Assembly (NCBI RefSeq): GCF_004349065.1
Contig: NZ_SMKZ01000029.1
Span: 1-64,000 of the forward strand
DNA: 64,000 nucleotides
Direction: 5' to 3'
Source: Jiangella asiatica
GTDB lineage: Bacteria; Actinomycetota; Actinomycetes; Jiangellales; Jiangellaceae
Below are positions 4,366 through 53,125 of this stretch, piece after piece (positions within the stretch are counted from its first letter, which is position 1; each line of letters begins with the position of its first letter). The translations under genes were made by a program, and so were the position numbers. Below the pieces are notes generated by a model that was given only the letters and a program-made list of their open reading frames with translations, searched no databases and was not told where the DNA came from.

Positions 4366-5850
4366 TCAGTGCCGCACGTCCAGGTGGAACGCGTCGGTGT
4401 GGTACCCGGGCCAGGCGGTCGCGCGCTGCTCCGCGGGGGTGTCACCCATCGCCGGCACCGCCGGGAGCCGGCCGCCGTCGAGGTAGCGCTCGCCGCCGCC
4501 GTCGCGAACAGCCGCGACCAACCGCTCCCGCCACCGGCCCAGCTCGGCCGGATCGGCCGGATCGGCCGAGCGGGCCAGGTCGGACCGTTCCTCCGGATCG
4601 TTCTCCAGGTCGAAGAGCTGCTCGGCCGGACCTTCCGGGTACCAGATGTACTTGTGCCGGCCGTCGGTGACGGCCAGGTAGTACGGCACGCCGGGCGGCC
4701 CGCCGTCGCCGCTGGCGATGCCGGTCACCATCCGTGACGGGGAAGGCGCCGCCGCCAGCGACACGAGGTCGACCCCGTCGACGTCGTCGCCGACGGTGCC
4801 GCCGGCCGCCTGGACGAACGTCGGGAGCACGTCGGCCAGCGTGACGGGGGTCCGCACGACCGTGCCGGGCGGGAACGGTGACGCACCCGCCGGCGGCCGG
4901 ACGATCATCGGCACGCCCGCGGACACCTCGTGGAAGAACACCTTGTTGCCGGTGCCGTGGTCGCCGAGGAACTCGCCGTGGTCGGACGTGAAGACGATCA
5001 GCGTCCGCCCCAGCTCGCCGATGTCCTGCAGGGCCGCGAGCACTCGGCCCAGGTTGTAGTCGATCTGCGTGACCAGCCCGTAGTAGGCCGCCCGGGCGGC
5101 CTTGACGGTGTCCGGGTCGAGCTGGTCGAACGAGCCGCGGTGGCGCTGGCGCAGGAACGCCGCCGGGGCATCGTCGCCGGCCCAGTCGCCGACCACCGGC
5201 TCCGGGATCGGCGCGGACAGGTACATCGAGTAGTACGGCTCCGGCGGGTCCAGCGGCGGGTGCGGTTTGGAGTAGGACAGCCACATGAACATCGGGCGGG
5301 TGGGGTCGCGGCGGTGCCGGATGTGCTCGACGGCCTGCTCGGACAGCCACGAGGTCAGCGTCGCCGCCTCCGGGACCGTAGCCATGCCGGGGTACAGCTC
5401 GTTCTGGCCCAGTCCGTGGCGCATCGCGGCGACGGCGGTCCGGCTGGCGTGCCGGTAGTAGTCGTCGGGCAGGACCAGCTCTTCGAAGCCGTGGTGCGCG
5501 CGCGGCGGGCTGAAGTGCATCTTCCCTATGCCGACGGTGGCGTAGCCCAGCGCGGACAGCCGCGCGGGCAGCGTGGGCGCGCCCGGCGACAGGACCGACG
5601 AGGTGGCGCCGTTGTGCGTCATCCCGTGGCGCAGGCTGGACTGTCCGGTCAGCAGCGACACCCGGGACGGCACGCACACCGGCGTCGAGGCGTAGGCCGC
5701 GTCGAACCGGACACCCTCGTGGGCCAGCTGGTCAAGGTGCGGCGTGCGCAGGAAGCGCGGCGCACTCGGACCCAGCGTGTCACGGCGCTGCTGGTCGGTG
5801 GTGATCAGCAGCAGGTTCGGCCGGTTGTCGGCGGGGACGGCGCTGTTCAC
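4366..5850 (-). CDS. Sulfatase (formylglycine-dependent, alkaline-phosphatase superfamily)
   Basis: This 494-residue enzyme should hydrolyse sulfate esters. The N-terminal metal-binding TTDQQRRD is at about residues 17-24. The sulfatase signature VCVPSRVSLLTGQ has Cys59 as the residue to be converted to formylglycine, and FTSDHGEFLGDHG supplies further metal ligands. No signal peptide is seen, so it is probably cytoplasmic and acts on an imported substrate. It starts with GTG, overlapping the stop of the oxidoreductase gene by four bases, and is the last gene of the five-gene importer operon. That context suggests a sulfated sugar or polyol as substrate. No maturase gene is present in this window. 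Confidence 0.93.
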   Translation of the reverse strand: MNSAVPADNRPNLLLITTDQQRRDTLGPSAPRFLRTPHLDQLAHEGVRFDAAYASTPVCVPSRVSLLTGQSSLRHGMTHNGATSSVLSPGAPTLPARLSALGYATVGIGKMHFSPPRAHHGFEELVLPDDYYRHASRTAVAAMRHGLGQNELYPGMATVPEAATLTSWLSEQAVEHIRHRRDPTRPMFMWLSYSKPHPPLDPPEPYYSMYLSAPIPEPVVGDWAGDDAPAAFLRQRHRGSFDQLDPDTVKAARAAYYGLVTQIDYNLGRVLAALQDIGELGRTLIVFTSDHGEFLGDHGTGNKVFFHEVSAGVPMIVRPPAGASPFPPGTVVRTPVTLADVLPTFVQAAGGTVGDDVDGVDLVSLAAAPSPSRMVTGIASGDGGPPGVPYYLAVTDGRHKYIWYPEGPAEQLFDLENDPEERSDLARSADPADPAELGRWRERLVAAVRDGGGERYLDGGRLPAVPAMGDTPAEQRATAWPGYHTDAFHLDVRH

Positions 5851-40975: not shown

Positions 40976-43177
40976 TCATTTCCTCACGATCGGTGAGTTC
41001 AGGGGTTGGTGGTGCGGGGCCGGCTCGGCACAGGCGTCGAGGTATTTCGCCATTCCGAAGGTGCCGGCGCTATAGGGCCAGGCTAGACCGCCCCAGGTGT
41101 CGCCTTTGCGGATGAGCCCGTCGTCGGCGCCCTGGTCGCAGAACGAAATGCCTTCCGGTTGCATGCCGATGTCGGCGAACCCGTACGACCGCTCCGGGAC
41201 CGACAGCAGCTGCACCGACGAGTGCGCGATGAGCTGTGCGACGCGGGCGAACAACTGGTCGTCGGCGAGCCGGGCGAGGCGGACCAGATCCGCGGCGAAG
41301 AAGAGGGAATAGATGTCGGTCACGCCGGCGCCCCAGATGGAGTTGATGCCTCCCCAGCCGACCGAGCGGACGCCCGCGGTGGCGACCTCGGTGCCGTCAA
41401 TGTTCGGCACCGTCCAGATGGAGTGCCAGGTCACCGCCTGTGTGGCCGACCGGCGTGCCGCATCCAACCAGCGGCTTTCCCCAGTCGCCTCATGCAGCGC
41501 CAGGGCGGCGCTCATGACCAGAAAGGCTGCCTCTTTGTCGACGACGTTCGGGTTGTCGAGCGTCCCGCCGCGGTAGTCGTCCAGTGCGACGGAGTGTCGC
41601 AGGACGTACTCGCCGGCTCGAATCGCGGCGTCTCGGTATCGCCGAGCGGCCTCGGGGTGACACCCGGTCGCCTGCCGGGCGACGGCGAGCAGGAACGGGA
41701 CCACCGTCGACGTCGCCGTCTTGCCGGCGGCCGGCGACGTGCCGAACCATTCTCCGCCGGTAACCGGGTCGCCATCGGGGGTGTAGGCCCGGTACCAGGC
41801 CCCGTCGTCATCCTGATACCGGACGAAGAAGTCGGCGAGCCGAAGGCAGGCGTCCCACCAGGACGGACGCGCGGTGGTTGGGTTGTACAAGGAGATGTTG
41901 AGCAGCAGATCGGAGCCGGCCTCGGCCATCATCCGGCTGTAGGTTCCCGGCCGGCTGGATCGTCCGAGGTAGTGCATGACCGGACCAGTCGGGTCGCCGC
42001 AGGCGTACAGCGGCCGCTTTCGGCCGGTGTCCCACAACGTGTACATCCAGCCGGAAGCGGTACACATCCGATCGACGAACGCGTCCACCACGCGAGCGGC
42101 GCGCTCGGACCAGGCATCAGGGTTGTGGCGGGCGAGCATGTAGGCGACGTTGAGCTGCCGGCCGGTGAAGCCGTACTCGAAGATCTGCTCGGAACGGCCC
42201 ATCCGATGCTCGGCGAACGATGCGCCGAACGCCAAGGGGTGCGAGCCGAACCCGTGTCGCGGGTCGAAGTTGAGCGCGAATCCTGCGAACCCGTCGTCGG
42301 ATTCCCGGTAGGTGGCAGCAGCCGAATCCAACCGCACTTCGATGGAGTCTCTCAGTGGCACGGGGAGGGCGGTCGGCTCCGGCGCCGCAGCGGCCAAAGC
42401 GGCGCTGAACGCCCGGTGAGTCGCGGTCGAGAAGGTCTTCGCGGCGTCGACCCACAACCGGTAGCGGATGGTGATGTCGAGGTCCTCGCCGTCCACCGGG
42501 AAGTGTGCGGTGGCCGGGGTACCCTGACGGTCCAGCATGGCGCTGGTTTCGCCCTCGTGGTACGGCCAGTTGGCGCTCAACGTCAGCGTTTCGGGCTCGG
42601 TGGAGAAGCCGACCGAGCCGATGTCTGTGCGTTGGATGAACGCTCGCTGGCCTGGCTCTCGCTCCGGCGCTTGGTCGAAGGTGGCGGGGGTGAGTCGTTT
42701 CAGGACAATGACCTCACCCCGACGTACCTGGTGGGCCGCGACGAGCGGATAGGCTAGGCGGTGATCGGCGTAGGAGTGCTCGCGGCCATCGGTGTACTGA
42801 TCCACGGCGTAGATCAGTCCTGGCACGAACAGCCGGACCGGCCCGGGCGACGGCACCGACCATGCCAGCCGCAAGCGGAACCCGTCCGGGTGCTCCGGAG
42901 CTGGACCGGTGGCGCGGATCCGGCGGTGCAGCGTCAGCGCATCGCCGGCCGGCTCCCAGGTATCGGAGACCCGGATGGTGGCGTCCCCGTGTCGCCACTG
43001 GGCCGTACCCGTCCACCGGCCCTCGAGGGCCGAGGCGATGTGGTCGTAGCCGCTTCGATGAAGGGACCCGTCCACGCCGGCGCACTCGATGGGGTGCTCC
43101 AACGTGGCCCATGTGCCGGCTCCGCGGCGGACGTCCAGACCGGCTCCGCGCGGCGCCGGCGCGACCATAAGCGTCAC
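40976..43177 (-). CDS. Unclassified (alpha/alpha)6-barrel glycosidase-like protein
   Basis: 733 residues that I cannot place in a named glycoside hydrolase family. The N-terminal third looks like a beta-sandwich (TWEPAGDALTLHRRIRATGP). The rest is a helical barrel rich in aromatic and acidic residues (SGWMYTLWDTGRKRPLYACG, RYQDDDGAWYRAYTPDGDPV, GWGGINSIWGAGVTDIYSLF). No signal peptide, so cytoplasmic. It heads the operon with an importer and a GH127 enzyme, suggesting it acts on the same oligosaccharide. The open frame extends to a TTG at 43219, but that crosses a LacI-type operator. GGAGG five bases before GTG 43177 marks a better start. Confidence 0.8.
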   Translation of the reverse strand: MTLMVAPAPRGAGLDVRRGAGTWATLEHPIECAGVDGSLHRSGYDHIASALEGRWTGTAQWRHGDATIRVSDTWEPAGDALTLHRRIRATGPAPEHPDGFRLRLAWSVPSPGPVRLFVPGLIYAVDQYTDGREHSYADHRLAYPLVAAHQVRRGEVIVLKRLTPATFDQAPEREPGQRAFIQRTDIGSVGFSTEPETLTLSANWPYHEGETSAMLDRQGTPATAHFPVDGEDLDITIRYRLWVDAAKTFSTATHRAFSAALAAAAPEPTALPVPLRDSIEVRLDSAAATYRESDDGFAGFALNFDPRHGFGSHPLAFGASFAEHRMGRSEQIFEYGFTGRQLNVAYMLARHNPDAWSERAARVVDAFVDRMCTASGWMYTLWDTGRKRPLYACGDPTGPVMHYLGRSSRPGTYSRMMAEAGSDLLLNISLYNPTTARPSWWDACLRLADFFVRYQDDDGAWYRAYTPDGDPVTGGEWFGTSPAAGKTATSTVVPFLLAVARQATGCHPEAARRYRDAAIRAGEYVLRHSVALDDYRGGTLDNPNVVDKEAAFLVMSAALALHEATGESRWLDAARRSATQAVTWHSIWTVPNIDGTEVATAGVRSVGWGGINSIWGAGVTDIYSLFFAADLVRLARLADDQLFARVAQLIAHSSVQLLSVPERSYGFADIGMQPEGISFCDQGADDGLIRKGDTWGGLAWPYSAGTFGMAKYLDACAEPAPHHQPLNSPIVRK

Positions 43178-43203
43178 GTCCGCCTCCGCTGTTAGAAAAT
43201 CTA

Positions 43204-43217
43204 CGAAAAGCTTTTCC
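43204..43217. promoter_or_regulatory. LacI-type operator upstream of the arabinoside operon
   Basis: CGAAAAGCTTTTCC is a near-perfect palindrome (centre AGCT) lying 27 bases before the proposed GTG start of the operon. It matches the second site, CGAAACCCTTTTCG at 44393-44406, in its outer CGAAA and TTTTC halves, and fits the LacI-family operator pattern. Confidence 0.65.
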
Positions 43218-43287
43218 AAGCTGCCGACGCTAGACCCGTCACGGAAGTGACGTCAAGCGGCTGCCGGCATCGTCCGGGATCGGACGG

Positions 43288-44627: not shown

Positions 44628-45941
44628 TCACTGCTCCCTCGGCATCCAGGGCTTCGCCGCGCGGCCGTCGAGGTCCCAGACCACCTCGCCGGCGCGGACG
44701 GTGAGGGCACAGACCAGCTTCCGGTCTCCGTCGATGCGGAAGCCGAAGCTGTCGACGAGCCCGAAGTCGCCCTCCGCCAGCTCGAGCAGCGCCACGTCGG
44801 CGGGCGCACCCGGTGACAGGTGTCCCAGGTCCTCCCGGCCGATGGCCTGTGCCGGCGCCAAGGTGGAGGCCTCGATGACGTCGTACAGCGGCAGGCCCAG
44901 GGCCAGGAACTTCGACATGACGTTGGTCATGTCCTTCATCCCGGAGTTCATGCTGCTGATGTGCAGGTCGGTGGAGATCGTGTCGGGTACGAAACCCTCC
45001 TCCATCGCCGGCACCGCGACGTCCCACGCGAAGCTGCCGCCGCCGTGCCCGACGTCGAACAGCACGCCGCGCTCGCGCCCGGCCCACATGCCGGGGTTGA
45101 CCTTGCCGTCCTCGGTGAGCTCGCCGCGGTTGCCCGAGTAGGCGTGCGAGTAGATGTCGCCGGGGCGGAGCTTCTCGGTGAGCAGTTGTTCCAGCGGGCG
45201 CTCCGGGTGGTCGGCGCCGAAGTCGACCATGACCGGGAGACCGGCGATCTCGCCGGCTCGCACCGACCGCTCCACTGGCTTCCAGTCGGTGCCTTCGTAG
45301 TGGGCGGTCTTGATGCCGACGATGTCGTCCGGGTACTGCTGGGCGACTCGCGCCGCCGGCCCGGGCAGCATGTTCGTCAGGTCCTGCTCGAACTCCCCGC
45401 CGGCCATGCCCTTGCCGACGATGTTGAGGAACGCCAGCACCCTCGTGTTCGACCGGTCGATCACATTGGTCTTGAACTCGTCGAAGTTCTCCCAGCCGGC
45501 CGACCCGGTGTCGACGGCCGTCGTGACACCGGAGCGGAACGTGAACCCGTCGGGGGCGACACTCTGCCAGCCGGCTGAGTACGCGTCGTTCGGCCCGACG
45601 AACAGGTGGGTGTGCATGTCGATGAGACCGGGTGTGACGTAGAGCCCGGAGGCGTCGACCGTCCGCTCGGCGCTGGTGGGGTCGATCTCGGCGGCGACCT
45701 CGGCGATCACGCCGTCGTCGATCGCGACGTCGAGGACCTCGTCGCGCTCGTTCTTCGGATCGATGACGTGGCCGTCGTCGATGAGCAGGTCGTACTCCGC
45801 GTCGGCGCCGCCGCTGCTGGCCGCCCGCGGTGGGGGCGCGGCGTCGTGCTCCGGCGTCGACGATCCGGCGGTGTGCAGGGCGGTCACGGCGAGCACGCCG
45901 GACAGGGCGAGGGGGAGGACCGTACGGGACCGTGGTGTCAT
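44628..45941 (-). CDS. Exported amidohydrolase/deacetylase-family metallohydrolase (COG3964 type)
   Basis: 437 residues. An N-terminal export signal (about 1-28, LPLALSGVLAVTALHTAG) and a disordered linker precede an amidohydrolase barrel. Metal ligands are in GLIDMHTHLF, a possible carboxylated Lys in VGIKTAHYEG, later His residues in DIYSHAYSGNRG and FDVGHGGGSF, and the catalytic Asp region in TISTDLHISS. Relatives include enzymes first called dihydroorotases and later shown to deacetylate small esters such as acetyl-(R)-mandelate. They are often paired with SelA-like PLP enzymes, as here. The secretory leader is unusual. It is the last gene of a three-gene operon. Confidence 0.88.
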   Translation of the reverse strand: MTPRSRTVLPLALSGVLAVTALHTAGSSTPEHDAAPPPRAASSGGADAEYDLLIDDGHVIDPKNERDEVLDVAIDDGVIAEVAAEIDPTSAERTVDASGLYVTPGLIDMHTHLFVGPNDAYSAGWQSVAPDGFTFRSGVTTAVDTGSAGWENFDEFKTNVIDRSNTRVLAFLNIVGKGMAGGEFEQDLTNMLPGPAARVAQQYPDDIVGIKTAHYEGTDWKPVERSVRAGEIAGLPVMVDFGADHPERPLEQLLTEKLRPGDIYSHAYSGNRGELTEDGKVNPGMWAGRERGVLFDVGHGGGSFAWDVAVPAMEEGFVPDTISTDLHISSMNSGMKDMTNVMSKFLALGLPLYDVIEASTLAPAQAIGREDLGHLSPGAPADVALLELAEGDFGLVDSFGFRIDGDRKLVCALTVRAGEVVWDLDGRAAKPWMPREQ

Positions 45942-45969
45942 GTCGGCTCCAATCCGTCGGGGTCGTGGC

Positions 45970-46464
45970 TCAGCGGCAGGCGATGCAGTCGATCTCGACC
46001 AGGGAGTCGCCCGGGATGCCGGCCGCGGCGGCGATGGTCGTCCGCACGCCGGGGCGGTCGCCGAAGCGGCCGAGGAAGACCGCGTTCATGGCGTCGTAGT
46101 CGTCGAGCGAGTTCAGGTACACGTTGACCTTGAGCACCTTCTCCATCGACGAGCCGACCGCCTCCAAGTAGCGCTCCACCTCGTTCAGCACGTGATCGGT
46201 GTGTGCGGTGATGTCGCCCTCGAAGTGGGCACCGATTCCGGAGATGAAGACCAGGTCGCCGAACGTGACGATCGGGCTGAACAGCGGGTTGTCCGGCGGC
46301 TCACCACCCGGCCAGTGCGTCTCCTTGTGCGGCCGGTGCCGCGAGCCGCCGGGCTGGTCCTGCTGCTCGGAGTCGGTCAGGGCGGCCGCGCCGGTCGCGG
46401 CGGAGGCCGCCACGACCGCAACGGCCGGTGCCTTGCTGATGAAGTCTCGTCGGTTCGGGATCAC
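45970..46464 (-). CDS. RidA-family protein with Tat signal
   Basis: 164 residues. The N-terminus NRRDFISKAPAVAVVAASAA is a twin-arginine (Tat) signal: RR, then F and K, a hydrophobic stretch and an Ala-rich cleavage region. The mature part is a RidA/YjgF fold (PLFSPIVTFGDLVFISGIGA; NVYLNSLDDYDAMNAVFLGR; VEIDCIACR at the end). RidA proteins hydrolyse reactive enamine/imine intermediates made by PLP-dependent dehydratases; the partner here is the exported SelA-like enzyme encoded 39 bases upstream. AGGAGG precedes GTG 46464. Confidence 0.9.
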   Translation of the reverse strand: MIPNRRDFISKAPAVAVVAASAATGAAALTDSEQQDQPGGSRHRPHKETHWPGGEPPDNPLFSPIVTFGDLVFISGIGAHFEGDITAHTDHVLNEVERYLEAVGSSMEKVLKVNVYLNSLDDYDAMNAVFLGRFGDRPGVRTTIAAAAGIPGDSLVEIDCIACR

Positions 46465-46503
46465 AGTGCCTCCTGGTCTGCGTGCTCGAATGACGGGGTC
46501 GGG

Positions 46504-48117
46504 TCACGCCTGGCGGGTGGCGGTCCACGTGGCACGGAGGTACTCACCCATGTCCAGGGCGCCGCTCATGGAGGTGCCGTCGCCGGACACCGTGCCGGTG
46601 AACGTGAAGGAGAGCGCGTCGCCGTGCGACTCGCCGTAGCTGCTGCGGATGCTCACGGTCTCGCCGCTGACGGTGCCGGTGGCCTCGCGCGACACGAACT
46701 CGCCGGTGTGTGTCCCGCTGAGGTCGGCGCCGTCCTGGGTCAGCTCCAGCACGTGCGCGTCGGAGCTGCTCGCGGTGTACTCGATGCTGACCTGCCAGGT
46801 GCCGGCGACGTCCACCGCGGGTGGCCGCGGCGGCTCGGGCGGCTCCGGCGGGTCGAGCAGCAGTGCCCGCAGCTCTCTGGCGATGATCTTGTCGTCACCG
46901 GGGGACATCATGTAGGGCGTGATCGACACGCCGGTCCGCCCGGGCGCGTCGCCGGATGTCGAGTTGAGCGCGATGCGCGGCTCGCCGTCGTACATGGTGG
47001 CCGAGGCGGTCGCGCCGGACAGTCCGACCTGCTCCTCGTCCCAGTACACGCGCAGCGACGGGGTCCGGTTCGACAGCCCTTCCGGCTGCACGATCCGCGT
47101 GGTGACGCCGTCGACCGTGGAGACCGTGCTCGCGATGTGCTCCAGCCACCCCGTCCACTGGTCCCACTCGGCGTCGTGGTCGCGCCGCAGCCACATCTCG
47201 ACGGCGGCGAGCATGCCGATCGCCTCTTCCTTGCCCACCTTGAAGCCGCGCCCGTAGCCGTGGTGCGGCGCGCTGTGCACCCACGCCGCCCGGACGAGGT
47301 CCTCGCGGCCGAGCAGCAGGCCGGCCGTCTGCGGTCCGCGCAGGCACTTGCCGCCGCTGTAGGCGACGAGGTCCGCGCCGCGCTCGAGGTGGACGTTCGG
47401 GATGGTGAGGATCTCCGCCGCCGCGTCCACCAGCACCGGAACGCCGTGCGGCCGAGCGATCTCGGCGATGGTCGCGGTGTCGAGCTCGCTCTCGTCGACC
47501 CGCGGCCCGGCCATGATGTAGACGAGCGCGGTCTGCGGGCCGAGGGCGGACTCCAGCTCAGCGCGCGTCTCGACCTCGACGACAGTCAGACCGATGGCGC
47601 TGACGGCGGCCTCGTAGACGTTGCGCGAGTGCCGCGGGATGATCGCTTCGGTCTTCTCGAACCCGGTCAGGTCCGGGATCTGGATGTGCAGGTCAGGGTT
47701 GCCGCCAGCGGTGCAGGCCGCCGCTGCGTGCCCGAGCCCGGCCGAGCACCCCGAGCTGACCATCCCGAACTCCGCGCCGGTCAGCTCGCCCAGACGCCGA
47801 CCGACGGCGTCGGCCAGCTCGTCCAGGTGGACGTACTGGCGGGCGGCGGCGTCGATCGCCTCCAGCACCTCGGGCAGCATGAGCGAGCCGCTCAGGATGG
47901 TGAACGTGCCGCGCCCGTTGATCAGCGGCCGCACGCCGATGGACTCGTAGACGTCGAGTCCGCCGGGTGCCGTCACGGCTCCAGGAGCGGGGCCGGTCCG
48001 AGCCGCCGGGGCGCCCGCCTCGGCCACTCCGGCCAGGACCGGGCTCAGAGCGAGGAGGCCACCCAGGCCACCCGCACGTTGGATGAGTTCGCGCCGACCG
48101 ATCCCGTCAACTCCCAT
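46504..48117 (-). CDS. Tat-exported SelA-like PLP-dependent enzyme with C-terminal beta domain
   Basis: 537 residues. A Tat-type leader (GRRELIQRAGGLGGLLALSP) comes first. A fold-type I PLP domain of the SelA/D-glucosaminate ammonia-lyase-like group spans about 45-410, with the PLP lysine Lys257 in YSGGKCLRGPQ. A Pro-rich linker (DPPEPPEPPRPP) and a roughly 105-residue beta-rich domain (GTWQVSIEYTASSS to the end) follow. It probably catalyses beta-elimination or a related reaction outside the membrane; the Tat route would let PLP bind before export. ATG 48117 has GGGAG five bases upstream. It is first in the operon with RidA and the amidohydrolase. Confidence 0.88.
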   Translation of the reverse strand: MGVDGIGRRELIQRAGGLGGLLALSPVLAGVAEAGAPAARTGPAPGAVTAPGGLDVYESIGVRPLINGRGTFTILSGSLMLPEVLEAIDAAARQYVHLDELADAVGRRLGELTGAEFGMVSSGCSAGLGHAAAACTAGGNPDLHIQIPDLTGFEKTEAIIPRHSRNVYEAAVSAIGLTVVEVETRAELESALGPQTALVYIMAGPRVDESELDTATIAEIARPHGVPVLVDAAAEILTIPNVHLERGADLVAYSGGKCLRGPQTAGLLLGREDLVRAAWVHSAPHHGYGRGFKVGKEEAIGMLAAVEMWLRRDHDAEWDQWTGWLEHIASTVSTVDGVTTRIVQPEGLSNRTPSLRVYWDEEQVGLSGATASATMYDGEPRIALNSTSGDAPGRTGVSITPYMMSPGDDKIIARELRALLLDPPEPPEPPRPPAVDVAGTWQVSIEYTASSSDAHVLELTQDGADLSGTHTGEFVSREATGTVSGETVSIRSSYGESHGDALSFTFTGTVSGDGTSMSGALDMGEYLRATWTATRQA

Positions 48118-48238: not shown

Positions 48239-49174
48239 TCACGGCAGCGCTTCGGTTCCGGCTGGGCGCGGCGCCACGACGATGGCGCCCAGCAGGTCAC
48301 GCGCCGCCCGGCTGAGCGGCCGCGACGAGTCCCAGCGCACGGCCACGCGCCGGCCGCAGTCGCCCTCCAGCCGCCGTACCACGATGCCGTCGGTGTCGCA
48401 GATGGCCGCCGCGAGCCCATTGGTGACGCCGACGCCGAACCCGCGCCGCACCAGCGCCATCAAGGTCTGCGGCTGGTTGGTGGCCTGGACCGGATGCAGC
48501 TCGAAGCCGTGCTCGCTGAACAGACGATACGGCTCGTAGCCGGCGGGATCGGGTGAGTCCATGGAGCCGATGGTGATCAACGGATAGGTGTTGACCTCGC
48601 TGATCGGAAGCGGCTCCGGCAGTGCGCGGAGCGGATGGTCCGGCGGGAACGCGACCACCAGCGGTTCCCGCCAGAGCAGCCGCTCGCGTATGGACGGCGT
48701 GCCCAGCGGCGGGCTCATCGGCCGCACGCACAGGTCGATCTCGCCCGCGACCAGCGCCTCGCCGAGCTCGATCGTGGAACGTTCGACCAGCGCCACCGTC
48801 ACGTCCGGGTGGTCGGCCGCGAAGCGATCCAGCAGCTCGGGCACGAACGCCGCGCTGGCACTCGGATAGGTGCCGAGGGTGACGACGCCGTGGCCGGTCG
48901 CCCGCCGCGTCGCCATGGCGTCCTCGGCCAGCTCGAGCTCGTGCAGGATCGCCTCGGCGTGTTCCGCCAGCGCCTTGCCGGCGTCGGTGAGCATGACCGG
49001 GCGCTTGCGGCGGTCGAACAGCCGCACACCGGAGGCTCGTTCGAGCGCCGCGACGTGGGTGCTCACCCGTGGCTGCGAGCGGTGGGTAGTCTCCGCGGCC
49101 GCGGAGAAGCTGCCGGTCTCGACGACCGCGAGGAAGGACACGAACCACTCGAGCCGCACATCAGGGTTGAGCAT
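48239..49174 (-). CDS. LysR-family transcriptional regulator
   Basis: 311 residues. The N-terminal winged HTH is LEWFVSFLAVVETGSFSAAA, then TTHRSQPRVSTHVAALERA (about 8-50). The C-terminal substrate-binding domain starts near 90 (GVVTLGTYPSASAAFVPELL). It lies upstream of the exported PLP operon on the same strand with a 121-base gap, not in the more usual divergent layout. Regulation of that operon is inferred from proximity and the dyad at 48133-48162. Confidence 0.92.
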   Translation of the reverse strand: MLNPDVRLEWFVSFLAVVETGSFSAAAETTHRSQPRVSTHVAALERASGVRLFDRRKRPVMLTDAGKALAEHAEAILHELELAEDAMATRRATGHGVVTLGTYPSASAAFVPELLDRFAADHPDVTVALVERSTIELGEALVAGEIDLCVRPMSPPLGTPSIRERLLWREPLVVAFPPDHPLRALPEPLPISEVNTYPLITIGSMDSPDPAGYEPYRLFSEHGFELHPVQATNQPQTLMALVRRGFGVGVTNGLAAAICDTDGIVVRRLEGDCGRRVAVRWDSSRPLSRAARDLLGAIVVAPRPAGTEALP

Positions 49175-49237: not shown

Positions 49238-50746
49238 CTAGAGGCCGCCGGCGAGACGGTGGTAGGCCTGGTTCCAACGCAGCTCCTGGGCGAACCGCCG
49301 GGTGGTCGTGTTGGCGTCGATCACCACGAGCTCGGTGCGGACCATGTCGGCGAAGTCGGCCAGGATCTCCGCGCCGACCGCCTGCGACAGCACGGTGTGG
49401 TGCGGTCCGCCCGCGGTCAGCCAGGACTCCGCCGACGTCGACAGGCTCGGCCGCGGCTTCCACACCGCCCGGGCCACCGGTAGGCGCGGCAGCGGCTCGT
49501 CCGGCGGCACCACGTCGATCTCGTTGGCCACCAGCCGGAACCGGTCGCCGACGTCGGCCATGCCCACGACGACGGCCGGGCCGGCAGCGGCGTCGAACAC
49601 CAGCCGGACCGGGTCCTCGCGGTTGCCGATGCCCAGCGGGTGGATCTCGCAGGACGGCGTGCCGGTCGCGATGGTCGGACAGACCTCCAGCATGTGCGCG
49701 CCGAGGATCCTCGGCTCACCGGGCCCGAAGTGGTAGGTGTAGTCCTCCATGAACGACGTGCCGCCGGCCAGCCCGGCGGCCATCGACTTCACCGTCCGCA
49801 GCAGCACCGACGTCTTCCAGTCGCCCTCGCCGCCGAAGCCGTAGCCGTCGGCCATGAGTCGCTGCACGGCCAGGCCGGGCAGCTGGCGCAGCCCGCCGAG
49901 GTCCTCGAAGTTCGTGGTGAACGCGCGGAACCCGCCGTCGGTCAGGAACGCGCGCAGGCCTGCCTCGATGCGCGCGGCGTAGCGCAGCGACTCGCGCCGG
50001 TCACCGTCCTTGCGCAGCTCCGGCACCAGGTCGTAGGTGTCGTCGTACTGTGCGACCAGCTCGTCGATCTCGGCGTCGCTGGCAGCGTCGACCACCGCCA
50101 CGAGGTCGTTGACACCGTAGGTGTTGACCGACACCCCGAACCGCAGCTGTGCCTCGACCTTGTCGCCCTCGGTGACGGCGACGTCGCGCATGTTGTCGCC
50201 GAACCGGGCCAGCTTCAGCGCGTGGATCTCGGCGTACCCGACGGCGGCCCGGACCCAGGCGGCGATCCGGGCGACGACGACGGGGTCGCTCACGTGGCCG
50301 GCGACGGTGGTGCGCGCGACGCCCAGCCGGGACTGGATGTACCCGAACTCGCGGTCGCCGTGTGCGGCCTGGTTGAGGTTCATGAAGTCCATGTCCAGCT
50401 CGGCCCACGGCAGCGACCGGTTCGCCTGCGTGTGCAGGTGTAGCAGCGGCGTGCGCAGCGCGTCGAGTCCGCTGATCCACATCTTGGCCGGCGAGAACGT
50501 GTGCATCCAGGCGATCAGGCCGACGCAGGAGTCGTCGGCGTTGGCCTCCAGCGCCACCCGCCGGATGGCGTCGGCGTCGGTCAGCACCGGCTTCCAGACC
50601 ACGCGGACCGGGATGTCGCCGGCGCTGTCGAGGGCCTGCGCGATCTGCTGCGACTGCCCCGCGACCTGGCGCAGCGTTTCGTCTCCGTAGAGCCCCTGGC
50701 TCCCGGTCAGGAACCAGACCTCACGCTGGTCGAACACCGCATCCAT
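49238..50746 (-). CDS. araA: L-arabinose isomerase
   Basis: 502 residues. Catalytic and metal-binding parts are complete: [17 protein letters not shown] (Glu), [20 protein letters not shown] (Glu and His) and [13 protein letters not shown] near the C-terminus (His). It converts L-arabinose to L-ribulose in the cytoplasm. The start at ATG 50746 has GAGGAG at six bases; ATG 50752 abuts the ribosome site and is less likely. It is the last gene of the araR-araB-araD-araA operon, 46 bases after araD. Confidence 0.97.
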
Positions 50747-50792
50747 CGTCATCTCCTCGTGGCTTCGTCGGCTCAGTGGGCGTTGCCCAGGC

Positions 50793-51458
50793 TCACTGGC
50801 CGTACACGTTCTGGTATCGGTCGTACAGGCGGTCGATGTCGTCCTGGGGGATCGGCTTCGGCTCGCCGAGCTGACGGGCGATGTGCACCGTCCTGGCGAC
50901 GTCCTCGCACATCACCGCTGCCTTCACCGCTGCCGTGGCGTCCTCGCCGATGCTGAAGACGCCGTGGTTCTTCATGAGCACCGCCGGCGACCGGTGCCCG
51001 GCCAGCGTGTCGACGATGCCGCGGCCGATGGAGTCGTCCCCGATCAGTGCGAACGGGCCGACCGGGATCTCGCCGCCGAACTCGTCGGCCATGGCGGTCA
51101 GCACGCAGGGGATGGCCTCGTCGCGCGCGGCCCACGCGGTGGCGTAGGTGGAGTGGGTGTGCACGACGCCGCCGACGTCAGGCCGGTGGCGATAGACGTA
51201 GGCGTGCGCGTCGGTGTCGCTGGACGGGGAGAGCTCGCCGTCGACGAGCTTGCCGTCGAAATCGCAGACGACGATCGACTCCGGCGTGAGGTCGTCGTAC
51301 GACACGCCGCTGGGCTTGATGACGAACAGGTCCGCGCCGGGCACCCGGCCCGAGACGTTGCCGGACGTCCAGGTGACCAGGTTGTACCGGGTCAGGTCGG
51401 CGTGCAGCGCGCAGACCGTGCGGCGCAGGACGCCGATGGTGTCGTCGAGGGTGGTCAT
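50793..51458 (-). CDS. araD: L-ribulose-5-phosphate 4-epimerase
   Basis: 221 residues of the class II aldolase/epimerase fold. Substrate-binding motifs are WTSGNVSGR and [10 protein letters not shown]. Zinc ligands are in [16 protein letters not shown] plus a later His in [13 protein letters not shown]. It converts L-ribulose 5-phosphate to D-xylulose 5-phosphate for the pentose phosphate pathway. ATG 51458 overlaps the araB stop by four bases. Confidence 0.95.
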
Positions 51459-53125
51459 CGGGTCACCGCGGTCCGCTTGATGGCGCGCAGCCGGCGCATG
51501 ACGTCGTTGCCGCCGCGCCCGAAGTAGTCGTGGAGCGTGACGTACTCGGCGTAGAGGGCGTCGTACGCCTTGGCGCGGTCGGGGTCGGGCTGGTAGACGG
51601 CCCGTTCGACATTGCCCATGGCGGCCGCGGCCGCGTGCACGTCCGGGTAGGCGCCGGCTGCGACGGCGGCGTGGATGGCCGAGCCGAGAGCCGGGCCCTG
51701 CTCGGAGCCGATGACGCTCAGCGGCAGGCCGGTGACGTCGGCGTAGATCTGCATGATCAACCCGTTCTTCAGCAGCCCGCCGGCGATGATCAGCTCGGTG
51801 ACCTCGACGCCGGCGCGGTTGAACGTCTCGATGATGGTGCGGGTGCCGAACGCGGTGGCCTCGAGCAGCGCCCGGTAGGTGTCCTCGGGCTTGGTGGCCA
51901 GCGTCTGGCCGACGACGACGCCGGACAGCTCGTGGTCGACCAGCACGGACCGGTTGCCGCTGTGCCAGTCCAGCGCGATCAGCCCGTGCTCGCCGACCTC
52001 CTGGGCGGCGGCCAGCTCGGTCAGGTACTCGTGGACGTTCAGGCCCCGCCGGGCGGCCTCCTCGGCATAGGTCGCCGGCACCGACGTGTCGACGAACCAG
52101 CCGAAGATGTCGCCGACCCCGCTCTGCCCGGCCTCGTAGCCCCAGCGGCCGGCCATGATGCCGCCGTCGACGACGCCACACATGCCGGGCACCTCGCGCA
52201 GGACGTCGCCGTTCATGACGTGGCAGGTGGACGTGCCCATGATCGCGACCATCTGGCCGGGCTCGACCGCCTGCGCGGCCGGCGCCGTGACGTGGGCGTC
52301 GACGTTGCCGACCGCGACGGCGATGCCCTCGGGCAGGCCGGTCCATGCTGCCGCCTCGGCGGTGAGCCCGCCGGCCCGGTCCCCGAGCTGGCCGATCGGC
52401 TGGTCGAGCTTCTCGCTGACGAAGTCGGCGAAGCCGGGGTTCAGCGTCGCGAGGTAGTCCGGCGAGGGGTAGGCGCCGTCCTGCCGGATGCCCTTGTAGC
52501 CGGCGGTGCAGGCGTTGCGCACGTAGCTGCCGCTGAGCTTCCAGACGATCCAGTCGGCGGCCTCGACCCAGCGCTCCATGGCCGCGTAGATCTCCGGGTC
52601 CTCTTCGAGGACCTGCAGGGCCTTGGCGAACTCCCACTCCGACGAGATCAGCCCGCCGTATCGCGCCAACCACGGCTCGTTCCGATCGGCGGCAAGTGCG
52701 TTGATGCGGTCGGCGTGCGGCTGGGCGGCGTGGTGCTTCCAGAGCTTCACGTACGCGTGCTTGCGCCCGGCGTACTCCGGCAGCTCGTTGAGCGGGGTGC
52801 CGTCCGCGAGCGTCGGGATCATGGTGCACGCGGTGAAGTCCGTGGCGACGCCGATGACGGCGGTCGGGTCGACGCCGGCGGCGGCGACGGCCCGCGGTAC
52901 GGCGGTCTTGAGCACGTCGATGTAGTCAGAGGGCACCTGCAGCGCCCAGTCCGGCGGCAGCCGCTCGCCGGTGCCGGGCAGTTCGTTGTCGACGACGCCG
53001 TGTGTGAACTCGTGGACGGCGCTGCCCAGCTCGGCGCCGTCGGCGACCCGGACCACCACGGCCCGTCCGGACAGTGTCCCGAAGTCGATACCGACGACGA
53101 CGGCGTCGTTGGTGTTATCGCTCAC
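51455..53125 (-). CDS. araB: Ribulokinase
   Basis: 556 residues of the FGGY kinase family. The N-terminal phosphate-binding VVGIDFGTLSGRAVVVRVAD, the domain signature region (MGTSTCHVMNGD, EPGQMVAIMGTS) and GGLLKNGLIMQIYADVTGLP in the C-terminal domain are present. It phosphorylates L-ribulose with ATP. GTG 53125 is the start. It lies 51 bases after the LacI-type regulator gene and overlaps araD, so one transcript is likely. Confidence 0.96.
   Translation of the reverse strand: MSDNTNDAVVVGIDFGTLSGRAVVVRVADGAELGSAVHEFTHGVVDNELPGTGERLPPDWALQVPSDYIDVLKTAVPRAVAAAGVDPTAVIGVATDFTACTMIPTLADGTPLNELPEYAGRKHAYVKLWKHHAAQPHADRINALAADRNEPWLARYGGLISSEWEFAKALQVLEEDPEIYAAMERWVEAADWIVWKLSGSYVRNACTAGYKGIRQDGAYPSPDYLATLNPGFADFVSEKLDQPIGQLGDRAGGLTAEAAAWTGLPEGIAVAVGNVDAHVTAPAAQAVEPGQMVAIMGTSTCHVMNGDVLREVPGMCGVVDGGIMAGRWGYEAGQSGVGDIFGWFVDTSVPATYAEEAARRGLNVHEYLTELAAAQEVGEHGLIALDWHSGNRSVLVDHELSGVVVGQTLATKPEDTYRALLEATAFGTRTIIETFNRAGVEVTELIIAGGLLKNGLIMQIYADVTGLPLSVIGSEQGPALGSAIHAAVAAGAYPDVHAAAAAMGNVERAVYQPDPDRAKAYDALYAEYVTLHDYFGRGGNDVMRRLRAIKRTAVTR

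Follow-up and report, generated by a model that had tools for sequence, protein, structure and literature searches.

Introduction

The cytoplasmic breakdown of N-acetyl-glucosaminic acid has been described in Pseudoalteromonas strain ACAM 620, where the ong pathway (OngB, OngC, and OngD) yields 2-keto-3-deoxygluconate (KDG), which then passes to a kinase and a presumed aldolase (PMC9537276). OngD is a RidA protein that is essential for this pathway and whose role in it is unexplained (PMC9537276). In DGL, a pyridoxal 5'-phosphate (PLP) enzyme that is cytoplasmic because its substrate is phosphorylated and imported by the phosphotransferase system, the H163A mutant retains activity but frees its enamine into the surrounding solution, with a transient near 293 nm, and the authors mention RidA as one enzyme that removes such enamines (PMC9529869). 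Here we analysed a 64,000-nucleotide stretch of Jiangella asiatica DNA (GCF_004349065.1, contig NZ_SMKZ01000029.1, positions 1 to 64,000; hereafter the window), which carries a three-gene operon for a SelA-like PLP enzyme, a RidA protein, and an amidohydrolase, all with predicted export leaders. We propose that this is an exported catabolic trio for the extracytoplasmic deacetylation of N-acetyl-hexosaminic acids and the elimination of ammonia from them, a counterpart of the cytoplasmic ong and DGL chemistry, and we give this reading slightly better than an even chance.

In Chlamydomonas, an extracytoplasmic RidA stands beside an amine-oxidising enzyme, and in Gluconacetobacter diazotrophicus a Tat-type L-amino-acid oxidase clusters with ridA (PMC5053998; Tat, twin-arginine translocation). 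PvdN, which takes part in pyoverdine biosynthesis and belongs to fold type I of the PLP enzymes, is periplasmic according to titles in a reference list (PMC7497351). The biological function of an N-acetyl-D-hexosamine oxidase from Ralstonia solanacearum (7zzk) is called unclear by its authors, who note homologues in Acidobacteriales (PMC9299179). The author of a preliminary description of the window knew of no described pathway of the form suggested there. No exported SelA-like/RidA/amidohydrolase operon was found among titles and abstract openings, a coverage in which subscription journals mostly do not figure, but the same logic exists in the cytoplasm in ong (PMC9537276). An extracytoplasmic RidA likewise has a precedent in Chlamydomonas, alongside the ridA clustering of Gluconacetobacter; both of these involve oxidases (PMC5053998).

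Results

Operon layout and predicted export leaders

The three genes form one minus-strand run in the order SelA-like, RidA, and amidohydrolase, with intergenic gaps of 39 and 28 bases; all features of these genes given below lie on the minus strand. The first gene (46504..48117) encodes a DgaE/SelA-like PLP enzyme of 537 amino acids that matches Aminotran_5 above the cut-off and is of the long form, with a C-terminal beta domain behind the PLP fold and a predicted Tat leader in front. The second (45970..46464) encodes a RidA protein of 164 amino acids with a predicted Tat leader (PF01042, 62.5 bits against a cut-off of 27.3). The third (44628..45941) encodes an amidohydrolase/deacetylase of 437 amino acids with a predicted leader for the general secretory (Sec) route (NF006689, 433.4 bits against a cut-off of 371), which we take to be of the COG3964 type.

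All leaders were scored by one home-made rule applied to every N-terminus, not by a trained predictor, and the window is included in the counts. The twin-arginine leaders that the preliminary description had reported for the SelA-like and RidA proteins were both recovered. The SelA-like protein carries the Tat motif GRRELIQ at residues 7-13 (48079..48099), whose arginines R8 and R9 do not vary across the 11 proteins aligned, and RidA carries NRRDF at residues 4-8 (46441..46455). The secretory leader reported for the amidohydrolase was confirmed as Sec-type by eye and by rule; the protein begins with MTPRSRTVLPLALSGVLAVTAL, and its leader and linker span residues 1-45 (45807..45941), where the predicted local distance difference test score (pLDDT) is below 50. 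The features that our own rule expects of Tat substrates (an RR motif, a hydrophobic stretch, and TatC in the genome) were all found for the predicted leaders, the window's genome encoding TatC.

To follow the leaders in other genomes, we read loci (L numbers) chosen from Actinomycetota and Acidobacteriota by likeness to the window protein. For Acidobacteriota, 41 of 52 listed places were read, the remaining 11 belonging to the 15 weakest. The Tat rule was satisfied by 46 of 49 long SelA-like proteins, and the three misses (L073, L010, and L083) still have RR. It was also satisfied by 20 of 21 short SelA-like proteins, the single miss being truncated at the locus edge, and by 34 of 34 RidA proteins. 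All 34 amidohydrolases showed an export leader (29 by the Sec rule and 5 by the Tat rule). In comparison homologues from the window's phylum, a leader was found in none of nine SelA-like proteins and neither of two amidohydrolases; seven of the nine SelA-like genes had no ATG, GTG, or TTG 19-90 residues upstream of the domain and thus, by the rule, no room for a leader.

As a control, 332 other genes of the same loci were scored leniently, allowing any start within the first 90 codons, and 59 of them passed as Tat substrates and another 110 as Sec substrates. A single leader is weak evidence because these rates are high, but a chance origin of the leaders was ruled out by their conservation across the three families. 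The leaders are kept in nearly all operon relatives in two phyla, and the refuting test that the preliminary description had named, a look for orthologous operons lacking leaders, came out in favour of export in the loci read. From their sequences, the three proteins are probably exported.

The SelA-like enzyme

The nearest solved relative of the SelA-like protein is DGL (about 360 aligned residues, E 2.8e-34). Its PLP lysine is Lys-257 (47347..47349), which aligns with the Lys of 7lc0 in a column that is Lys in all 79 rows listed; K257 corresponds to Lys-213 of that structure (chain numbering; printed as Lys-217 in the paper) and R271 to its Arg-226. The place of DGL His-162 and His-163 is taken by G204 and P205 (47503..47508), and neither column contains a His in any of the 79 rows. 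The DGL phosphate arginines Arg-301, Arg-332, and Arg-346 are replaced by S354, T387, and Y402 in a pairwise alignment whose C-terminal part is less certain, and this replacement fits an unphosphorylated substrate.

The preliminary description had suggested an exported PLP elimination enzyme that travels with its own quencher. This idea gains a chemical basis because the enzyme is without the histidine whose removal frees the enamine in DGL. A link of the histidine loss to export does not stand: the absence of His-163 was rejected as a mark of the exported group, since the comparison homologues are also without it. The natural loss of the histidine in an enzyme whose operon includes RidA fits enamine release, though it is not specific.

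In the AlphaFold model, residues 433-537 (46507..46821) form a beta-rich C-terminal domain with no Pfam match at E up to 1; pLDDT by block is 60-93 over residues 431-537, with one block below 70. The N-terminal half of the protein is poorly modelled (mean pLDDT 61), and given this, Foldseek returned little beyond the PLP fold. Matches of rhizobial homologues in tblastn extend through the C-terminal domain.

RidA and the amidohydrolase

The window RidA did not reach the cut-off of NCBIfam TIGR00004 (Rid family detoxifying hydrolase; 54.2 against 106.25). The Arg and Glu of VRTT...LVEID, which we take to be the catalytic arginine and a conserved residue, are present in 34 of 34 RidA proteins. 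The window protein is a predicted enamine/imine deaminase.

The amidohydrolase model (predicted template modelling score 0.81) matched 8wzy, 8je0, 2ics, and 2ogj first by fold. The closest are 8je0 and 2ogj, and the match to 1m7j is weak (1.6e-5). Of the residues that presumably form the amidohydrolase metal site (HxH, Lys, two His, and Asp), the HxH, Lys, second His, and Asp are kept, and the first His is replaced by Asp-240 (45222..45224; MVDFG for MVHVG/MVHIG/MIHIG) in the alignment with leaderless and PDB relatives. All 33 leader-bearing amidohydrolases that are readable at this column have Asp there. Both leaderless ones have His, as do three of four PDB relatives as aligned, the alignment of the fourth (8je0) being shifted. 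All 34 leader-bearing amidohydrolases share a fixed KxAH motif.

Gene neighbourhoods

Flanks of mostly 5-6 kb were read for each SelA-like gene. Among the 49 long SelA-like genes, RidA was found in the flank of 32, the amidohydrolase in 30, both in 27, and neither in 14. Both partners were present at eight of nine actinobacterial loci; the ninth, from Streptomyces aculeolatus, is cut off by the end of its contig, and genes for RidA and the amidohydrolase lie at the start of another contig. An RraA-type aldolase (PF03737) occurred in 16 of 53 loci, a count in which one Granulicella region enters twice and L078 is only 41% identical. Hydrophobic N-termini, export-type by eye, are visible in most of these RraA proteins, and the lactonases of the clusters also showed RR-type or export-type N-termini by eye in most cases.

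The named isolate Granulicella tundricola MP5ACTX9 carries its cluster on plasmid pACIX902 in the order TonB-type receptor, RraA, short SelA-like, RidA, long SelA-like, amidohydrolase, lactonase, BBE oxidase, small protein (RR-type start), and GH35, all in one run. Its oxidase is 55% identical (256/464) to the N-acetyl-D-hexosamine oxidase 7zzk, at 543 bits against 249 for the next match, and the oxidase relative of L095 also matched 7zzk first (474 against 248 bits). Hexosamine-oxidase relatives at 1e-100 were found in at least 9 of 396 Acidobacteriota genomes, eight of them among the 36 genomes with a SelA-like match, and among the matches listed seven of the nine oxidase genes lie 2-16 kb from a SelA-like gene. 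The hypergeometric value for this co-occurrence is 2e-8, which overstates the case because related genomes are not independent. These oxidase counts are lower bounds, as few candidates are scored per genome; L092 and L095 carry the oxidase, yet their genomes fall outside those matches.

The transporters of the clusters are nearest to the D-galactonate family, below its cut-off. L131 has a 2-keto-3-deoxy-6-phosphogluconate (KDPG) aldolase above the cut-off together with a sugar kinase, truncated by the stretch end, that is nearest to KDG-type models; the KDPG aldolase starts show no leader by eye. The picture differs in actinomycetes, where a search for the helper genes of Acidobacteriota found none at most loci, and among the loci read an oxidase-family gene adjoins the trio only in Micromonospora (L001). 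We gave this oxidase little weight, as it is closer to TamL/AknOx than to 7zzk.

Three further neighbourhoods were observed. In an Acidobacteriota genome without a listed SelA-like match (L133:6352-10828), a KDPG aldolase, a KDG-type kinase, and a lactonase-like propeller accompany a relative of the hexosamine oxidase. In L096 (9361-11383), the interval between the transporter and the amidohydrolase contains a third SelA-like paralogue as well as a second RidA-like protein, each with an RR-type start, which hints at parallel modules for different substrates. The SelA-like gene of L070 is preceded (4404-5774) by a gene for a relative of galactonate dehydratase from the enolase superfamily, whose N-terminus is of the RR type.

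Distribution and history

Named genomes were scanned with six short peptide patterns, which gives a lower bound, and phyla beyond Actinomycetota and Acidobacteriota were covered only by plasmid records and this pattern scan. The scan returned 12 relatives with 54-75% identity, from eight actinomycetes and four Acidobacteriota metagenome-assembled genomes; an artefact of one genome was ruled out by these relatives in other genomes of two phyla. Within the window's family (22 genomes), an orthologue was found only in the window's own genome, and two others had leaderless homologues with 34-40% identity. A SelA-like match at 1e-70 was present in 36 of 396 Acidobacteriota genomes, 29 of these with the long form, while at 1e-90 only the window's own genome matched among 396 from Actinomycetota. 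The module thus occurs seldom within the window's phylum and more often among Acidobacteriota.

A quick tree of 79 SelA-like domains with 7lc0 and 8t7j was computed, with branch support by the Shimodaira-Hasegawa-like approximate likelihood ratio test (SH-aLRT) and no bootstrap. The 70 rows from leader-bearing loci formed one group (SH-aLRT 99), and the nine actinobacterial rows formed one clade (100) deep among the Acidobacteriota rows. The simplest reading of this tree is a transfer from Acidobacteriota to actinomycetes in which the leaders were kept.

Two Sinorhizobium plasmids encode long forms in which no leader is visible by eye. These forms branch beside the long clade within the leader group, and adding them weakened the idea of export as a single strict clade. 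Their position implies either one gain and one loss of the leader or two gains. An incomplete gene table shows neither a RidA nor an amidohydrolase gene within 8 kb of these rhizobial long homologues. The two genes (L113:7932-9536 and L114:7869-9509) lie near genes for phosphoenolpyruvate mutase and CDP-alcohol phosphatidyltransferase, which suggests an unrelated phosphonate or phospholipid pathway.

Surroundings of the operon in the window

A LysR regulator, possibly of the operon, is encoded 121 bases upstream of the SelA-like gene (48239..49174, minus strand; family match). A 41% identical relative adjoins the trio in Nonomuraea (L003), and LysR genes were seen in two of 53 loci, the window included. 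The genes just upstream (49238-53125) presumably encode an L-arabinose isomerase, an epimerase, and a kinase, which they resemble. On the other side, a 747-amino-acid protein (40976-43219) with no Pfam or NCBIfam family at 0.001 lies beside a sugar ABC transporter and a LacI regulator.

Discussion

In the mechanism that we propose, the amidohydrolase would remove an acyl group, probably acetyl, from an acylated 2-amino-3-hydroxy acid outside the membrane, and this substrate would most likely be an N-acetyl-hexosaminic (aldonic) acid. The SelA-like enzyme, exported by Tat with its PLP already loaded, would remove water across C2-C3 and free an enamine, a release that we propose because the enzyme is without the protonating histidine of DGL. 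The Tat-exported RidA would then hydrolyse the enamine or imine to ammonia and a 2-keto-3-deoxy acid. Some Acidobacteriota clusters may also form the aldonic acid, by an N-acetyl-hexosamine oxidase and a lactonase, and may dispose of the keto acid by an exported RraA aldolase, a sugar-acid transporter, or, in one cluster, a KDG-type kinase and KDPG aldolase. Taken as a whole, an oxidative breakdown of N-acetyl-hexosamines outside the cytoplasm, running from oxidase and lactonase through amidohydrolase, PLP ammonia-lyase, and RidA to RraA or to import with KDG kinase and KDPG aldolase, is a possibility that we put forward tentatively for Acidobacteriota and, by transfer, some actinomycetes. We infer the export, activity, substrate, and direction of the trio from its genes, the conserved leaders, the residues kept and lost, and the neighbourhoods.

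Several observations weigh against this proposal. Fourteen of the 49 long SelA-like genes had neither partner in the flank; some of these are second copies in their genomes, and three lie less than 3 kb from the stretch end. Among the 12 named genomes, RidA of the window type was found at 1e-15 in 11 and not in that of L010, and in the L012 genome it lies on another contig than the SelA-like gene. The best NCBIfam matches of the SelA-like enzyme, DgaE-type models, stay below their cut-offs (158.1 against 385.3 and 154.8 against 600), as do those of its leaderless relatives, and the loss of His-162/163 is common to the comparison homologues in the 79 rows. Asp at a likely metal-ligand position means that the chemistry of the amidohydrolase may differ. 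Checks in four Acidobacteriota clusters showed no leader on the hexosamine oxidase, which means that the first step may take place in the cytoplasm. The substrate class is likely, but by analogy with neighbours in another phylum: the window's genome showed no match to the hexosamine oxidase at 1e-30, only ten weaker oxidase-family stretches, and no AA10 lytic polysaccharide monooxygenase (LPMO) was found in it. An LPMO-fed substrate in the window's genome, which we had considered, is unsupported for this last reason.

The alternative that survives best keeps the same exported module and logic and changes the substrate, for instance to acylated beta-hydroxy or D-amino acids or to amino acids derived from peptidoglycan or antibiotics. 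It would account for actinobacterial loci that mostly are without the helper genes and that have an oxidase-family neighbour in Micromonospora only, for the lack of a hexosamine-oxidase match at 1e-30 in the window's genome, and for the clade-specific His-to-Asp change in the amidohydrolase, a member of a family that fits several acyl and ester substrates. We think it rather unlikely, as the Acidobacteriota neighbours (hexosamine oxidase relative, lactonase, galactonate-type transporter, KDG-type kinase, and KDPG aldolase) indicate sugar acids.

Less probable by some distance is a role for the PLP enzyme in biosynthesis or tailoring, as a periplasmic enzyme that modifies amines (a decarboxylase, transaminase, or PvdN-type oxidase) rather than as an ammonia-lyase. 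PvdN sets a precedent as a periplasmic fold-type I PLP enzyme (PMC7497351), and the rhizobial relatives adjoin phosphonate and phospholipid genes, but DGL is the nearest relative of solved structure, a lyase that releases enamine would be expected to have RidA as its partner, and the neighbours are catabolic. Least credible of all is that the leaders anchor or target the enzymes while these work on the inner side of the membrane, in a membrane-bound form of the known cytoplasmic pathway: the leaderless Acidobacteriota oxidase and KDPG aldolase starts would suit it, but the three families conserve leaders for Tat and Sec, two routes unrelated to each other, and RraA and the lactonases mostly have export-type N-termini by eye.

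If the exported breakdown of N-acetyl-hexosaminic acids is correct, soil bacteria of two phyla would deaminate amino sugars outside the membrane, by a PLP elimination pathway that is extracytoplasmic and has a RidA of its own, and chitin- and glycan-derived nitrogen would have a new route. A Tat-exported PLP lyase would be accompanied by a RidA that guards the envelope rather than the cytosol, which would extend Rid biology past the cytoplasm. The loss of a built-in proton donor would offer a testable reason why RidA accompanies PLP lyases and would suggest a role for the unexplained RidA of the ong pathway, and the orphan N-acetyl-D-hexosamine oxidase would gain a physiological role.

Each part of the trio has a described relative from which it differs. 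The SelA-like enzyme shares the PLP lysine and the carboxylate Arg with DGL (PMC9529869) but is without His-162/163 and the three phosphate Args and has a leader and an extra C-terminal domain. The amidohydrolase shares its fold and most metal-site residues with the COG3964-type structures 2ogj, 2ics, 8je0, and 8wzy, and differs in its leader, its fixed KxAH, and Asp for the His of MVHxG (in three aligned relatives). The Ralstonia oxidase 7zzk, 55% identical to the oxidase of the Granulicella operon, has no match at 1e-30 in the window's genome. Like the trio, the periplasmic L-amino-acid oxidases pair RidA with an extracytoplasmic imine-forming enzyme (PMC5053998); there the enzyme is a flavin adenine dinucleotide oxidase and not a PLP lyase, and the available text reports a Tat signal for the bacterial oxidase and does not show export of the bacterial RidA. 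PvdN resembles the SelA-like protein as an extracytoplasmic fold-type I PLP enzyme and differs in serving siderophore tailoring; we know of no RidA partner of PvdN.

The ong pathway comes closest in logic, with an amidohydrolase-superfamily deacetylase, a PLP deaminase, and a RidA in one cluster, a likeness that holds here at the level of functional classes only. OngB is D-aminoacylase-like and closest to 1M7J (PMC12017989), from which the window amidohydrolase is far, and OngC is described, in the part of the text available, as a putative D-amino acid deaminase and not as DgaE-like. The ong enzymes are cytoplasmic, whereas those of the window bear leaders and belong to other subfamilies. The trio would be a new, exported form of already known chemistry.

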